From positions 1 to 64,000 of the forward strand of contig JAIQFO010000009.1 in assembly GCA_020073215.1 (NCBI GenBank): a stretch of DNA of 64,000 nucleotides, in the 5' to 3' direction. Positions 1-6,111 of this stretch are shown here, piece by piece. How positions within the stretch are numbered: the first letter of the stretch is position 1; each line of letters begins with the position of its first letter. Made by a program: the position numbers and the translations under genes. The notes beneath the pieces are model-generated. The model searched no databases, was not told where the DNA came from, and saw nothing but the letters and a program-made list of their open reading frames with translations. This DNA comes from Terriglobia bacterium. Lineage in GTDB: Bacteria > Acidobacteriota > Terriglobia > Terriglobales > Acidobacteriaceae.

Positions 1-778
1 GATTCACCTTGAACCCTGCCGCCTCCATCGCATCCATCGCTTTCGATTGGCGGTCGAAATGAGTTCGTCCATCCTTCAACAGCATGTAGGCGAAGTAGTC
101 CATCCGGCGCTGGGCGGTAATCGAGGGCTCGAGCTGCCGCACCGTCCCTGCGGTAAAGTTGCGCGGATTGGCGAACACCGCCAGCCCTTGCCGCTCGCGC
201 TCCTCATTCAGTTTGCGGAAGGCGGCGAGCGGCATCAGCATTTCTCCCCGCACCTCGAAATCCGCGGGGATCCCCGCCTTCTTCAACTTGTCTTTCGCAA
301 CCGACAGTGGGACCGAGCGCACCGTCCGCACATTCAAGGTCACATCTTCGCCGACATTGCCATCGCCGCGCGTGATGCCGCGCTCCAGACGGCCGTCGCG
401 GTAGATCAGCGCCAGCGACATTCCATCCAGTTTCAACTCGCACATGTACTCGATGTCGGTCCGCCCGCTCAGCTCATGCACCCGCCGCTCCCAGTCGCGC
501 AGTTCCTCCTCGCTGTACGCGTTGTCGAGCGAGAGCATCGGAGAAGAATGCTTCGCCTTCACGAATCCCTCGCGCGGCTTGCCGCCCACGCGCTGCGTAG
601 GCGAGTCCGGCGTAATCAGCTTCGGATGGTCGGCTTCGAGCCGTTTGAGTTCGTTCATCAGCGCGTCGAACTCGGCATCCGAAATCTCCGGCGAGTCCAG
701 CACGTAATAGCGATACTCGTGATGCCGTATCTTCTCGCGCAGAGCGTCGATCTTCTTCTCGATGGCGGAACTGGACAT
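1..778 (-). CDS. ligA: NAD-dependent DNA ligase LigA, N-terminal part (runs off the left edge)
   Basis: Joins nicks in DNA during replication and repair, using NAD+ to adenylate itself. The minus-strand frame opens at ATG 778 (MSSSAIEKKIDALR) and stays open to base 2, giving 259 residues. It shows the Ia-type start (HHEYRYYVLDSPEISDAEFD) and the adenylation motif CELKLDGMSLALIY, whose Lys takes the AMP. The OB-fold, zinc finger, HhH and BRCT domains would lie outside the window. A TATAAT-like box lies at 793-788, only 9 bases before the ATG, so the transcript may have almost no leader. No clear ribosome site is seen. Confidence 0.96.
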   Translation of the reverse strand, partial: MSSSAIEKKIDALREKIRHHEYRYYVLDSPEISDAEFDALMNELKRLEADHPKLITPDSPTQRVGGKPREGFVKAKHSSPMLSLDNAYSEEELRDWERRVHELSGRTDIEYMCELKLDGMSLALIYRDGRLERGITRGDGNVGEDVTLNVRTVRSVPLSVAKDKLKKAGIPADFEVRGEMLMPLAAFRKLNEERERQGLAVFANPRNFTAGTVRQLEPSITAQRRMDYFAYMLLKDGRTHFDRQSKAMDAMEAAGFKVN

Positions 779-797
779 AACTGGGGAATTATAGTGC

Positions 798-942
798 GGG
801 GAAGTACCCAGTACCCGGTACCCAGTACTCAGCAGACCCCGCACCGTCCATTGACACAATACCCCGAAGCGTGGCAACAATGATTAAGTGGGGTTTTTCT
901 GAGAACCGGGAACTAGGAACTGAGAACTGAGAACTCTCAACC
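798..942. repeat. Low-complexity tandem repeats upstream of the selenoprotein candidate
   Basis: Two simple runs lie here. At 804-834 a GTACCCAGTACCC unit is repeated with small changes, and at 901-940 a GAACT(G/A)AGAACT unit is repeated. They lie between the divergent ligA and CMD-family genes. I see no coding potential. Confidence 0.6.
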
Positions 943-1512
943 ATGACATGGATTCGTACCATTCCGCTCTCCGAAGCTAACGACGAACTGCGACAGGCCG
1001 TCGAAGCGCAGAAGTCACTCTATCCCGCGGAGTACGCCGTTCCCATGCATCCCGCCGAAGGCGGCGGCTCCCAGATCGTGACCTCGCACTCTTTGATTCC
1101 GCAGGCCCTTCACCACGCGTTCTCGACCTTCGGCGCGCTGATGGCTCCCGACCTGCCGCTCGAGCGGCGTCATCACGAGATGATCGCCACCATGGTCTCG
1201 GTGACCAACCGGTGCGTGTATTGAATCGAGTCCCACGCAGAGTTTCTGCGTCGCGTCACGCTCGATAAGGAACTGGTCGAAGCCCTGGAACGGGATTACT
1301 CGACCGCGCCCATCACCCCGCAGGAACGCGTGATGATCGATTACGTCGTGAAACTCACCCAAGACGCGACCAAGGTCCGGAAAGACGATCACGAGAAACT
1401 GCGCGCCGCGGGCTTCGAAGATCAGGCCATCTTGCAGATCACGCTGATTGCGTCCTGGTTTAACTACATTAACCGCGTGGCCGATGCGCTGGGTGTGGGC
1501 CGGGAACCCTAA
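943..1512 (+). CDS. CMD/AhpD-family peroxidase-related protein, probable selenoprotein (Sec at residue 94)
   Basis: Likely a thiol or selenol peroxidase of the alkylhydroperoxidase-D/carboxymuconolactone decarboxylase fold, in the 'peroxidase-related' branch (about 180-190 residues). ATG 943 opens a frame that meets TGA at 1222-1224 and continues in the same frame to TAA 1510-1512, 189 residues in all. The TGA falls where this family has the second Cys of its CxxC redox motif: NRC91-V-Y-Sec94-I-E-S-H98. Both halves match the family; the second half includes [15 protein letters not shown] and LITL-like helices ending in [19 protein letters not shown]-like hairpin starts directly after the TGA (1225-1266). 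Read with Sec the protein is full length with its catalytic motif; read as a stop it would lose half the fold. A disabling point mutation cannot be formally excluded. No selA, selB, selC or selD is in the window. No strong ribosome site precedes the ATG. Confidence 0.85.
1225..1266 (+). promoter_or_regulatory. Bacterial SECIS-like hairpin directly after the in-frame UGA
   Basis: The lower stem is ATCGAG (1225-1230) paired with CTCGAT (1261-1266), perfect over 6 bp and starting at the base after the UGA. The upper stem is ACGCAG (1235-1240) paired with CTGCGT (1246-1251), also perfect, around the loop AGTTT. If the A-T closing pair forms, the loop is GTT. The loop starts 16 bases after the UGA and has a G in its first two positions. 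Both agree with the general bacterial SECIS rules (short hairpin, loop 16-37 nt from UGA, early G). It would bind SelB and direct Sec-tRNA to the UGA. Confidence 0.75.
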
Positions 1513-1537
1513 TTTGGGCAATTATATCCTTGACATA

Positions 1538-1615
1538 GTGAACTTAGTTCGAGACAGGCCAGATAAAGAGTTCAAGGCTGCACTCCAACAAATTCTCCGC
1601 GATGCAAAGTTCTGA
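1538..1615 (+). other. Short open frame (25 codons), coding status unclear
   Basis: A GTG-started frame reads VNLVRDRPDKEFKAALQQIL and ends AKF at TGA 1613-1615, 24 bases before the next gene. The composition is protein-like (amphipathic, charged). The same frame runs open further upstream, so it could be the tail of a decayed gene. There is no ribosome site and I recognise no family. Confidence 0.2.
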
Positions 1616-1639
1616 CCATGAGAGGCCCCAGGCGACAGT

Positions 1640-2494
1640 ATGATCACATCCAAGCAGTTTCGCGATCTACCAGAAAATGACCGGGTCGGTACATTTGAAA
1701 AGCTATTCCGCGCCGCGCTGGTATCCTTTCTTCCCGATCTTGCCGCCGCTCCGTGGTACGTGCGGGAGCGCGAAGTGGTGAACCTGTTCGTGTTCGGTCA
1801 CCTGATTCCGCAATTTCAAGACCATGACTTGGACATCCGGCAACTCTGTATCGAGGTGCCTGTGCTGAAACTTCGGAAGAGTACCAATGATGAGCTGGCT
1901 AAGCCCGAGATCAGCCAACCCGGCACCGGAGGGCCTGTCTCGAAGCCCCCGAAAGCACCAAGGCAGACACTCGGCAAGTATGGGGACATCGTGGTGTGGA
2001 CCCACAATAAGGCGACCATCTGGCAAACATGCAGACCGCTCGCCCATATCGAATGGAAAAACATAAACTGCCTAGAAAAGTATCCCAAGAAACAATTAGA
2101 GCGGGCCCACGAACAGGATATCTGCCTTTTGCAGCACAACCGAAGTTTGGTTTGCGTGAGCTATGCCGTTCTCACAGACTGGCGGAATTGCCACGTCGAG
2201 ATGCGGTGCAAAAAGATTTCGAATGGATCGGATGGAAAAGACCCAGAGGACTTCTTTTCCCCAATCTTCGGCCCCTTACCGCCGCATCCTGCTGGCATAG
2301 AAGTCTTTCAGAGAGATGCGCCGAATCGGAATCTCGTGTGGTGCCTTAAATCTGCGGCGATATGCCCCGACAAGGCGATTGCCGATTTGCAGCACACTTA
2401 TTCAGAGTTGCTATTGAGGCCGCAGGGATCGGCATGCCCAGATCGCATCGCACATCCCAGCGCATCGGCGGATCACGGTACGACAACTATATAG
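1640..2494 (+). CDS. Hypothetical protein, possible PD-(D/E)XK-type nuclease fold
   Basis: 284 residues, no signal peptide or membrane segment. I do not recognise a named family. The central part holds YGD116IVVW, then HIE138WK140 after 21 residues, the D...ExK spacing of PD-(D/E)XK nucleases, where a strand-borne Asp and the ExK pair bind the metal. The N-terminal part (FEKLFRAALVSFLPDL...WYVREREVVNLFVFGHLIP) is helical. Base composition is more AT-rich than the flanking genes and it has no operon partner, which fits recent gain. A GGCG-rich stretch before the ATG is the only ribosome-site candidate. Nuclease activity is inference from two motifs only. Confidence 0.6.
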   Translation: MITSKQFRDLPENDRVGTFEKLFRAALVSFLPDLAAAPWYVREREVVNLFVFGHLIPQFQDHDLDIRQLCIEVPVLKLRKSTNDELAKPEISQPGTGGPVSKPPKAPRQTLGKYGDIVVWTHNKATIWQTCRPLAHIEWKNINCLEKYPKKQLERAHEQDICLLQHNRSLVCVSYAVLTDWRNCHVEMRCKKISNGSDGKDPEDFFSPIFGPLPPHPAGIEVFQRDAPNRNLVWCLKSAAICPDKAIADLQHTYSELLLRPQGSACPDRIAHPSASADHGTTTI

Positions 2495-2543
2495 TTACTG
2501 TAATTTGGGTAGAGACGCGGCTTGCCGGCTCTTGCCCAGGCCA

Positions 2544-2879
2544 TCACTCGCCGGCCACCCGCCGATGCGATTTCACCGCCAGGCAGCGCGCGAAGATCGC
2601 CGCCACCTGCGGAATCTCCGCTTCATGTAACTGAATCGCACTGCCCAGCTTCTTTAATGCCGCATTGAGAGCGGCAGGCTGGGCGTGGGTCAGTTCCGCA
2701 ACCTGCTGCCACTCCCGCGCCACGGGAATGCGCTCGTCGGTTTCCGCGTCCTCGCAGAACTGATCGGCCGCCTCCGCGGGAGTTCCGTACTCGTCGGCGA
2801 CATCCTCATGGAAGTAGCCCCGCAAAAACGTATGCAGCGCGGGAAAGTTGGCGGCGGTGATTTCCGGTTTCGGGCTCAT
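2544..2879 (-). CDS. CdiI-like immunity protein
   Basis: 111 residues, soluble. The start FPALHTFLRGYFHEDVADEYG followed by an acidic helix (EAADQFCEDAETDE) matches the contact-dependent-inhibition immunity family with the 'fLrgYfhqD' signature. It should bind and block the toxin encoded directly upstream. The ATG at 2879-2877 overlaps the toxin stop (TGA 2881-2879) by one base as TGATG, so the two are translationally coupled. The acidic charge suits binding to a basic RNase surface. The family is recognised from the motif; the pairing rests on position. Confidence 0.8.
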   Translation of the reverse strand: MSPKPEITAANFPALHTFLRGYFHEDVADEYGTPAEAADQFCEDAETDERIPVAREWQQVAELTHAQPAALNAALKKLGSAIQLHEAEIPQVAAIFARCLAVKSHRRVAGE

Positions 2880-3421
2880 CAGCGGCACTCCGGATAAGAA
2901 GTCAAAACGTAGTACTGGCCGGGACCGGAGTATTTTAGTACGAGCAGCGCGTGCGCGCACGGACGCGACTGGCTCTCGCCGCGATTCATAGTCCGGCCAA
3001 TCGGAGCGTCGCTGTCGTAGTCCAGCACCAGGTTCGGATGTCCACCCGAGCGGCCAAGCCAGCGCTGGATTCGGCCCTCGGATGCCGCGATCGCCGCGCC
3101 CACGGCGTGCTCAGCCGCATGGCGATCGGTGTAGGTTGATGCGCCGGTGATGCGAGGTTCCCGCTCCAGGCGCTCGCGCAGTTGTTCGTCGGTCTGGCCA
3201 ACATGCTTGCGCAGAATGTGTCCACCGGCGGCCTCGTCCTGGCTGAGGTCGCGCGGAGGAGCTGTATTGATGTCATTCGCCGCTCTGGCGTTAGGAGAAG
3301 CCGAAAAGTACGCGTGCGCGCTGTTTTTGGACCCGGGCGGCTGGCATGAGATCACGCCACACATCGCCAGTACGAGAACGATGCGAACCCAAGCCCCACG
3401 AATTCCAACCGATCCAGTCAT
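2879..3421 (-). CDS. Lipoprotein with RNase A-like CdiA-CT toxin domain
   Basis: 180 residues. Residues 1-26 are a lipoprotein signal (hydrophobic WVRIVLVLAMCGV, lipobox VISC with Cys26). A linker follows, then residues 58-178 match the bacterial RNase A-like domain found at the C-terminus of CdiA toxins: DLSQDEAAGGH68ILRKH73VG, an Arg-rich helix (LRERLERE), a conserved STYTD segment, IGR, and a terminal YYVLT174SY176PE. The His, Arg, Thr and Tyr positions of that family are all present. There is no CdiA filament, no secretion-system gene and no RHS repeat. The domain sits alone on a lipid anchor, which is unusual. It forms an operon with the immunity gene. The product could be a surface-displayed RNase toxin, or a domesticated periplasmic RNase. 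Confidence 0.78.
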   Translation of the reverse strand: MTGSVGIRGAWVRIVLVLAMCGVISCQPPGSKNSAHAYFSASPNARAANDINTAPPRDLSQDEAAGGHILRKHVGQTDEQLRERLEREPRITGASTYTDRHAAEHAVGAAIAASEGRIQRWLGRSGGHPNLVLDYDSDAPIGRTMNRGESQSRPCAHALLVLKYSGPGQYYVLTSYPECR

Positions 3422-3517
3422 CGAGCACCAGTCATTCCTGTCACACTACCCGTACAGTTTCCATTCTGTAACAGTTACGACCTGTAAAGTTCCGGAAATT
3501 GTGCTACTAAACAAGGT

Positions 3518-6079
3518 GTGCGGGCAAGTGTGCTGGATTCGCTCGACGATTTCGAACACTGGGGAGGCGGTTGCGCCTACGTGTTCCCCCGGGGATACCG
3601 GCGCGAGCGTTGGAGCTATCGGCGCGTCGCCCGAACGGCGTATCAGTTCGCCCGCGAACTCGAGGCGCGCAACATTGGCAAGGGCGACGCGGTGCTGCTG
3701 TGGAGTCCGAACTCGGCCGAGTGGGTAGCAGCGTTTCTAGGATGCGCGCTTTGCGGGGTTATCGCCGTTCCCATCGACGATGCCGCCAGCCCCGATTTTG
3801 CGCGCCGCATCAGCGGGCAGGTGCGAACAAAACTGGTGTTGTGTTCGCGCGCGCGCGCCTCGCTGTTCGAACAAGCTGTGTTCGAGCAAACCGAGGGCAT
3901 CGCAACCATCGACCCCGTCGATCTCGCGGCAGCGGTTGCCCAACGCCCGGCCGAACGCTTTCGTCTTCGTTCAACCCAGATTCAGCCTTCCGATCCGCTC
4001 GAAATCGTTTTCACCTCAGGCACCACGGCCGAGCCCAAGGGAGTCGTGCTTACTCACGCCAACGTGGTCGGCAACCTTGCGCCGATCGAAACCGAGATCA
4101 AGAAATATCTGAAGTACGAACGGCTGGTGCATCCGATTCGCTTCCTGAACCTGCTGCCGCTCAGCCACGTTTTCGGCCAGTTCCTCGGAATCTTTCTTCC
4201 CCCGCTGCTCGGCGGTACGGTGGTGTTCGAAAACACATTCAACCCAACTGAAGTCATGGCGACGAGTCGCCGCGAGCGGGTTTCAGTGCTGGTGGCCGTC
4301 CCGCGCATGATCGAGTCGCTGAAGCAGAAAGTCGAACGCGATCTCGATGCCACGGGCGCCCGCGAGAATTTCGCCGCCCGCTTCGACGCCGCCAGGAACC
4401 AGCACTTCCTGCGCCGCTGGTGGACCTTCCGCGACCTGCGCCGCCAGTTCGGATGGAAATTCTGGGCCATGATCAGCGGCGGTGCCGCGCTCGATCGCGA
4501 GACCGAAGAATTTTGGCATCGCCTGGGATACGCCGTGGTTCAAGGCTACGGCTTGACCGAAACCACTTCGCTGATCAGCTTGAACCATCCCTTCCACACC
4601 AGCCGAGGATCCATCGGCAAGGTACTGCCCGGGCGCGAAATCAAGCTGGCCGACGACGGAGAGATCCTGGTGCGCGGCAGTGGCGTCGCCAGCGGCTACT
4701 GGAACGGCCACGAATTGCAACCCGTCACCGGAGAAGAGGGCTGGTATCGCACCGGCGATCTGGGCGCGATCGATGAACAGGGAAATCTCTTTTTCAAAGG
4801 TCGCAAGAAAGAAGTAATCGTCACGCCCGCCGGCATGAACATCTATCCCGAGGACCTGGAAGCCTCACTGCGGCAGCAAGAAGAAGTCAAGGACTGCGTT
4901 GTTGTAGGACTTGAGCGCGGCGGCAATGCCGAACCCTGCGCCGTCTTGATCCTCCGCGATTCCCACAGTAGTGACGGGGCTCGCCCCGTCTCACGCGCCA
5001 ATGAATCTCTCGCCGACTATCAGCGCATGCGGACCTGGTTCGTCTGGCCCGAAGAAGACTTCCCCCGCAGTTCCACTCAAAAACCACGCCGCAACGTGAT
5101 TCGCGATGCGGTTGAAGCGGCCCTCAGTGGTCAAGCGCCCACCAACGCGGCCAGTCCGCTCGCCGAACTACTAACGCGAATCACCGGCGGGAGATTCCAA
5201 AACATGCAAACCCTGATGCCGGACGCAAATCTCGAAAGCGGCCTGGGTTTAGGTTCGCTGGAGCGAGTCGAATTGCTCAGCGCCCTCGAAGACCGTTACC
5301 AGGTCGACCTGAACGAAACGAACTTCGCGAACGCAGCGACGGTCGGCGACCTGGAAAAACTGCTGCAAGGAACTCCCGGCCACCGCCACGAATTTCACTA
5401 TCCTCGATGGACCCTGCGCTGGCCAACGACCTGGCTGCGCCTGGCCGCGCATTATCTGCTGGCGCGCCCGGCGGTATTTCTTCTGGGATGGCCCCGCGTG
5501 ACCGGGCGCAAGAACCTGCGCGGCGTTCGCGGGCCGCTGCTGGTCGTCTCCAACCACGTTGCTGATGTCGATGTCGGCTTCCTCCAGACGGCCCTCCCCG
5601 CGCGCCTTCGCCACAAACTGGCGACGGCAACCGGCGGCGAGGCGCTGGAACGGTTGCGCTCGCCCGCTCCCGATCGCGCCTGGTTCCGCCGAATCTACGA
5701 CCGCGTGCAATGGACGCTCGGGGTCGCCCTGCTAAACCTGTTCCCACTCCCGCGCCAGTCCGGCTTCCGCAAAAGCTTCGCCTACGCCGGAGACGCCGTT
5801 GATCGCGGCTTCAGCGTGCTCGTCTTTCCCGAAGGAAAGCACACCCAGGACGGCGAGCTCTGCACCTTTCGTTCCGGAGTCGGCCTGCTCGCCAACAATC
5901 TGCGCATCCCCATACTGCCGATGCGGATTGACGGCTTGTTTGAGGTCAAGAATGCCGGAAAGAAATTTGCGGCGCCCGGCAAGATTCAGGTGCGCATCGG
6001 CAAACCCATGCGGTTTGCGCCAGAAACTGACCCCGAGGAAATCGCTCGCGCCTTGCAGAGCACAGTTGAGAATCTCTAG
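3518..6079 (+). CDS. Acyl-ACP/CoA synthetase, carrier domain and PlsC acyltransferase fusion (Aas-like)
   Basis: 853 residues in three parts. Residues about 10-540 are an AMP-forming acyl ligase (VFTSGTTAEPKGVVLTH, GYGLTETT, YRTGDLG). Residues about 555-620 are an acyl-carrier domain with GLGS580LE as the phosphopantetheine site. Residues about 650-853 are a PlsC acyltransferase (NH680VADVD685, FPEG at 770-773). E. coli Aas has synthetase and acyltransferase in the opposite order and no carrier domain. The likely role is to activate free fatty acids and pass them to lysophospholipid. The start is GTG 3518 with AAGG just upstream. A palindromic repeat (4973-4990) is read in frame at residues 486-491, in the linker near the end of the ligase domain. 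Confidence 0.9.
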   Translation: MRASVLDSLDDFEHWGGGCAYVFPRGYRRERWSYRRVARTAYQFARELEARNIGKGDAVLLWSPNSAEWVAAFLGCALCGVIAVPIDDAASPDFARRISGQVRTKLVLCSRARASLFEQAVFEQTEGIATIDPVDLAAAVAQRPAERFRLRSTQIQPSDPLEIVFTSGTTAEPKGVVLTHANVVGNLAPIETEIKKYLKYERLVHPIRFLNLLPLSHVFGQFLGIFLPPLLGGTVVFENTFNPTEVMATSRRERVSVLVAVPRMIESLKQKVERDLDATGARENFAARFDAARNQHFLRRWWTFRDLRRQFGWKFWAMISGGAALDRETEEFWHRLGYAVVQGYGLTETTSLISLNHPFHTSRGSIGKVLPGREIKLADDGEILVRGSGVASGYWNGHELQPVTGEEGWYRTGDLGAIDEQGNLFFKGRKKEVIVTPAGMNIYPEDLEASLRQQEEVKDCVVVGLERGGNAEPCAVLILRDSHSSDGARPVSRANESLADYQRMRTWFVWPEEDFPRSSTQKPRRNVIRDAVEAALSGQAPTNAASPLAELLTRITGGRFQNMQTLMPDANLESGLGLGSLERVELLSALEDRYQVDLNETNFANAATVGDLEKLLQGTPGHRHEFHYPRWTLRWPTTWLRLAAHYLLARPAVFLLGWPRVTGRKNLRGVRGPLLVVSNHVADVDVGFLQTALPARLRHKLATATGGEALERLRSPAPDRAWFRRIYDRVQWTLGVALLNLFPLPRQSGFRKSFAYAGDAVDRGFSVLVFPEGKHTQDGELCTFRSGVGLLANNLRIPILPMRIDGLFEVKNAGKKFAAPGKIQVRIGKPMRFAPETDPEEIARALQSTVENL
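4973..4990. repeat. Family A palindrome inside the acyl-ligase gene
   Basis: GACGGGGCTCGCCCCGTC is a perfect 8-bp palindrome around TC. It is the same core as the intergenic copy at 14818-14835 and stands in frame in the coding sequence. Confidence 0.8.
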
Positions 6080-6111
6080 CGCAAGCTCGTGTGCGGACGG
6101 GATGCGGCGAA

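Follow-up and report, generated by a model that had tools for sequence, protein, structure and literature searches.

An open reading frame near the start of the acidobacterial DNA analyzed here (64,000 nucleotides; the window) is interrupted by one internal in-frame TGA, and the question is whether that codon ends translation or is read as selenocysteine (Sec). The frame starts with an ATG at position 943, meets the TGA at 1222 to 1224, and closes with a TAA at 1510 to 1512; read through, the plus-strand coding sequence (943 to 1512) specifies an AhpD-like (TIGR01926) protein of 189 residues, with Sec as residue 94. A sequence-only reading of the locus had placed the TGA at the second Cys of the motif, and both the frame and the aligned homologs agree: in N89-R90-C91-V92-Y93-U94, U94 takes the place of the second Cys in the active-site CxxC. 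Its likely partner in the CxxU pair, Cys91 (codon 1213 to 1215, plus strand), is nearly invariant (at least 90% of the rows in a 50-row alignment). From the sequence evidence set out below, the gene at 943 to 1512 very probably encodes a selenoprotein, and we put the probability that Sec is inserted at residue 94 at roughly 95%.

The family to which the gene had been assigned, CMD/AhpD, was recovered by profile searches. With Cys in place of Sec, the window protein matches Pfam CMD (37.4 bits; cut-off, 23) and passes the NCBIfam model TIGR01926, "peroxidase-related enzyme" (121.5 bits; cut-off, 81.8). All 50 aligned rows match TIGR01926 at an E value of 0.001, the curated cut-off being a result for the window protein alone among them. 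The same assembly holds a second TGA copy (C55:25061-25627), 88% identical to the window gene, and three remote paralogs, all with TGC.

If the TGA were a true premature stop or a miscalled TGT or TGC, the product would have 93 residues. Such a pseudogene or sequencing error might be suspected in a draft assembly (111 contigs; contamination, 5.65%), and a 168-aa shadow ORF overlaps the gene on the minus strand at 1015 to 1521; however, the TGA recurs in the C55 copy and in other genomes. Scanning named genomes gave 256 relatives, and the codon aligned to residue 94 was read in the best 80; it is TGA in all 80. Cys forms lower in the list would escape notice, since only the best 80 of 256 were retained, but the scan was not biased toward TGA, because the peptide pattern spanning the site carried Cys rather than Sec. 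In a phylum sample (an even selection of 396 Acidobacteriota genomes), 31 places were at least 60% identical, two of them being the window gene and the C55 copy; TGA is present in 30 of the 31, and the sole exception, G014, has TGC. At 32 to 43% identity we read 38 places, 37 with TGA and one with TGC (G295, a genome with SelB), a proportion that gives no rate because the places were picked from the listing mostly for their TGA. The in-frame UGA is thus aligned with Cys in homologs of known structure (2pfx, 3c1l, and 2oyo) and in homologs with TGC (G014, G295, and the remote paralogs of the same assembly), making this the Cys/Sec column that the sequence-only reading had anticipated. One locus also carries, about 1.7 kb past its first homolog, a second and remote CMD-fold homolog (L073:5978-6376; 31% identical) that likewise has TGA at the residue-94 column (HCPF-TGA).

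Beyond the TGA, as far as 1512, the frame stays under coding constraint, as had been proposed: in comparisons with 59 relatives, median pN/pS was 0.26 before the TGA (codons 1 to 93) and 0.14 after it (codons 105 to 189). By this measure purifying selection is as strong downstream of the TGA as upstream. This constraint and the freezing at synonymous sites of six codons behind the TGA, described below, both argue against a pseudogene or a sequencing error, which we regard as extremely improbable.

Read-through that needs no Sec machinery, whether by near-cognate suppression of UGA (with Trp or Cys) or under a reassigned code, would likewise maintain selection on the frame past the TGA. The codon does not look simply reassigned, however, since it ends 8 of 29 long window ORFs (TAG ends 12 and TAA ends 9), these ORFs being hand-picked from the ORF list with their gene status unverified. 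A second argument against such read-through is a candidate bacterial SECIS (bSECIS)-type hairpin on the plus strand at 1235 to 1251 (ACGCAGA-GTT-TCTGCGT), which begins ten bases past the TGA and has a stem of seven pairs (1235 to 1241 with 1245 to 1251) and a GUU loop (1242 to 1244). The bSECIS model, as printed in PMC13188914, asks for a stem of 4 to 16 bp, a loop of 3 to 9 nt with G in the first two positions, a distance of 16 to 37 nt from the UGA, and an energy of −7.5 kcal/mol or lower; the window hairpin fits all of the constraints printed there (7 bp, GUU, 17 nt from UGA to loop, and −8.2 kcal/mol). Rfam gave no match in the whole window at the gathering score, nor in 900 to 1600 at an E value of 5. 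The folding energy is not unusual against dinucleotide shuffles (z, −1.04), and of 2,000 synonymous recodings of the 36-nt stretch, 849 reach a folding energy as low as the native one. Folding energy is therefore uninformative, and the case for the hairpin rests instead on synonymous conservation and pairing.

We scored both in 110 TGA orthologs: 28 from the phylum sample and the best 80 of the 256 relatives, together with the window gene and the C55 copy. A few of these may represent the same species entered in two genome collections; L001, L006, L129, and L130 were excluded from the hairpin comparison as duplicates. Codons 98 to 103 (CAC GCA GAG TTT CTG CGT) are the top six in codon conservation among 114 scored positions (those where at least 80% of rows share the majority residue; Met and Trp excluded), with majority-codon shares of 0.98, 0.98, 1.00, 0.99, 1.00, and 0.96, respectively. 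Outside codons 97 to 103, the mean share over 107 positions is 0.59 (two-fold codons: mean 0.70, maximum 0.94; others: mean 0.55, maximum 0.84), and the flanking codons 97 and 104 have shares of 0.42 and 0.26.

Orthologs form 6.95 of the seven stem pairs versus 4.46 (SD, 0.09) in synonymous recodings, and the 37 distant TGA homologs form 5.68 versus 3.98 (SD, 0.16); Cys rows form 1.80 versus 2.50, from five rows that amount to three distinct sequences (L003, L007, and L010 are one place on C71). With the register left free, a stem of at least six pairs occurs in 110 of 110 orthologs and in none of the five Cys rows, two of which reach four pairs, the lower limit of the model. Of the 37 distant TGA homologs, 15 fall short of six pairs (out of seven) in the fixed register, and 34 form an unbroken stem of at least six pairs when both register and loop are free. 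Pair 14-24 is C-G in 51 of 84 distinct sequences, G-C in 21, and unpaired in 12; pair 17-21 is A-U in 62 of the 84 and C-G in 6; and 80 of the 84 have G at loop position 18. To judge from these counts, distant TGA homologs retain the hairpin through compensatory changes. Pairing and the loop G would explain most of the codon freeze, so that no extra constraint need be invoked.

The sequence-only reading had predicted that the host should have the Sec machinery, and all four genes were found in its own assembly: SelA (C27; 536 bits; two pieces in one frame), SelB (C71; 380 bits), SelD (C30; 355 bits; two pieces), and tRNA-Sec (C5; 72 bits; anticodon TCA by ARAGORN), with the proviso that this assembly possibly holds two related populations. 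Their presence also weighs against read-through without Sec. The SelD gene (G000:C30:784-1791) has an in-frame TGA and probably encodes a selenoprotein itself. An AhpD-like gene with TGC lies tail to tail with selB in the same assembly (G000:C71:78398-80731; 120 bases between matches), as does an AhpD-like gene lacking any in-frame stop in another genome (G084:C21:155984-158454; 131 bases between matches).

Across the phylum sample, SelB is over the cut-off in 254 of 396 genomes. A SelB match with an E value of 6.7e-89 or better accompanies the TGA ortholog in 27 of 28 genomes (SelB counts per genome were read by eye from the match listing); the exception, G242, is an assembly of 950 contigs that has a TGA ortholog, SelA (549 bits), and a SelB match of 209 bits, below the cut-off. 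The 37 distant TGA homologs come from 35 genomes, 32 of which have SelB at 7.2e-90 or better. The three others, in which Sec-free reading of UGA would find some support, gave no SelB match stronger than 3.9e-57: G080 (75% complete), G266 (72%), and G277 (97%), the source of distant homolog L137. The gap in G277, where no SelB match was stronger than 9.3e-57 despite 97% completeness, is harder to excuse than those in G080 and G266.

G014 is informative because it departs from its own clade. In the tree it sits inside the TGA clade next to L124 (support, 97/84), and it has TGC at the residue-94 column and no hairpin. Profile searches of this genome gave no SelA match, and the best SelB match (182.5 bits) was under the cut-off. 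A tRNA-Sec match of 47.1 bits, against a gathering score of 47, is probably not genuine; it is close to the 44.2 bits reached by a tRNA-Ser of our source assembly. G014 also has Thr instead of Cys at position 91, so its protein is a changed one and not the product of a plain Sec-to-Cys swap. To judge from these sequences, G014 is a natural control, a relative within the TGA clade that has Cys and lacks SelA, SelB, and the hairpin. That a bSECIS-fitting hairpin follows the UGA and is gone in a relative lacking SelA and SelB is difficult to reconcile with near-cognate suppression or a reassigned code; we consider either very unlikely, if a shade less so than a pseudogene or an error, and retain Sec insertion as our reading of the window gene.

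What would the selenoprotein do? An AlphaFold (AF2) model built from the 50-row alignment is all-helical (mean pLDDT, 95.1), and its best fold match in the PDB is 6k40, AhpD of Deinococcus radiodurans (TM, 0.82). By sequence, the five top-scoring PDB relatives (2pfx, 3c1l, 2oyo, 6k40, and 2prr) match within residues 53 to 185, a span that includes the TGA. In the model the TGA maps to the start of a predicted helix (residues 92 to 106), so that a stop there would remove half of the fold, as the sequence-only reading had argued. Glu79, Tyr93, residue 94, and His98 are invariant in the 50 rows. By spacing, Glu79 (codon 1177 to 1179, plus strand) corresponds to Glu36 of PA0269 and Glu118 of Mycobacterium tuberculosis AhpD, and His98 (codon 1234 to 1236, plus strand) corresponds to His55 and His137 of the same proteins. 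PMC3141380 describes Glu36, Cys48, Tyr50, Cys51, and His55 of PA0269 as a proton relay and reports weak reduction of H2O2; the window protein has all five AhpD proton-relay residues at the fixed spacing.

The frame, the residue-94 column, the constraint on the hairpin, the Sec machinery, and the predicted fold are supported at the level of sequence; that Sec is inserted in vivo is an inference, as are the proposed substrate, reductant, and chemistry. Translation would proceed from 943 to the UGA at 1222 to 1224, where SelB with Sec-tRNA-Sec would bind the hairpin at 1235 to 1251 and Sec94 would be inserted in place of termination; translation would then continue to the TAA at 1510 to 1512. The product would have an AhpD-type active site made up of Glu79, Cys91, Tyr93, Sec94, and His98. 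Sec94 may attack a hydroperoxide or other oxidized substrate to give a selenenic acid, which Cys91 could resolve as an Se-S bond, and a cellular dithiol would then re-reduce the pair.

We lean toward a peroxidase role for the Sec94 protein, for which the five relay residues, in place by spacing, argue. A selenoprotein whose main job is something other than peroxide removal, namely, an adaptor of AhpC, a Bmp8-like reductive dehalogenase, or a thiol-disulfide exchange protein, is the less probable of the two but a serious contender. Because the peroxidase activity of PA0269 is weak, the actual substrate of the window protein may differ; PMC3141380 also calls AhpD an adaptor of AhpC, the fold matches of our model include the debrominase Bmp8 (TM, 0.70 to 0.75), and there is no peroxiredoxin among the annotated neighbors, which are a minority of the neighbor clusters.

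Genome neighbors gave no functional link among those annotated. An AMP-binding/PP-binding/acyltransferase gene lies near at least 42 of the 80 loci and a citrate synthase gene near at least 17 of 80, both lower bounds because contig ends truncate many of the loci; neither of these genes is placed like an operon partner in the window or on C55. The C55 region (G000:C55:18000-27756; L006) and window positions 1 to 6100 each have a copy of the gene and have downstream neighbors in common; upstream, C55 has citrate synthase (PF00285) and the window has NAD-dependent DNA ligase (PF01653). Citrate synthase appears again on C27 as a contig-edge fragment, 95% identical over 105 residues. Probably the assembly mixes two related populations, or else the region is duplicated. 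On the minus strand of the window, 2544 to 3421 encodes a CdiI_2 immunity-like protein (PF18593) and a protein with a bacterial CdiA-CT RNase A domain (PF18431), genes for each of which occur in 15 of 80 related loci (the best 80 of 256 relatives). A 284-residue ORF (1640 to 2494, plus strand), lying after the selenoprotein gene and before the CdiI-like one, matches nothing in Pfam and nothing in the corresponding region of C55.

Within Acidobacteriota the ortholog is frequent. The best 80 of 256 relatives also include records titled Gemmatimonadetes and Latescibacterota, which the tree places among Acidobacteriota; transfer or mis-binning could each account for such nesting. Somewhat short of even odds, we suggest that in soil Acidobacteriota, and perhaps in neighboring phyla, this ortholog is a nearly obligate selenoprotein: nearly all lineages with the gene would have retained Sec, a Cys form would arise only once the Sec machinery has been lost (one case), and the gene may be one reason why Sec decoding persists in these soil bacteria. 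Since gene callers take TGA as a stop, such genes are likely shortened in automatic annotation of MAGs. The rarity of Cys forms in close relatives, the Cys case lacking SelA and SelB, and the synonymous freeze over the hairpin together offer a clean natural test case for SECIS function.

Where the sequence-only reading called this a probable new selenoprotein, "selenoprotein" very probably stands and "new" does not: the family was reported in 2005, so the window gene is an additional member, and it adds no new kind of system. "AhpD-like protein" (COG2128, CxxU) was presented that year as a new selenoprotein family with 27 Sargasso Sea sequences (PMC1088965) and was found again in marine data in 2008 (PMC2398784); it is also listed in PMC9312934. 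A 2026 review places TIGR01926 with CxxU among known selenoprotein families (PMC13188914), its reference 59 being, to judge from the matching family lists, the 2005 Sargasso paper. For Acidobacteria, three selenoprotein families were counted in 2006 (PMC1794560), and three known selenoprotein genes are given for Occallatibacter riparius (PMC12013277). The open-licence literature searched, as far as its accessible text goes, yielded no paper describing the ortholog group in soil Acidobacteriota, and the window gene itself may be unannotated.

The closest known system is the AhpD-like family itself (COG2128/TIGR01926; example, MCB9421940.1), with which the window protein shares the NCBIfam model and CxxU. 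In contrast to the marine reports of that family, the window ortholog group derives mostly, to go by record titles, from acidobacterial MAGs of soil and groundwater. The AhpD-related CFYUT and YciW-related families have the AhpD-type core in common with it, and NCBIfam names both as (seleno)protein families, but the window protein belongs to neither: it scores 59.3 bits against a cut-off of 175 for NF041238 (AhpD_rel_CFYUT), which PMC13188914 lists with CxxU, and 36.9 bits against a cut-off of 310 for NF053654 (GroundWater_YciW). The GSU3128 family (NF041047), a distant AhpD homolog given as a CxxU selenoprotein in PMC13188914, has no match to the window protein at an E value of 0.001 and matches, weakly, 1 of the 50 aligned rows. 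Among characterized structures, the predicted fold is shared with AhpD of D. radiodurans and, less closely (TM, 0.65), with PA0269 of Pseudomonas aeruginosa (2O4D/2IJC). With PA0269 the window protein also shares the active-site spacing Glu-X11-Cys-X-Tyr-Cys-X3-His set out in PMC3141380; the difference is that PA0269 has Cys where the window protein would have Sec94.
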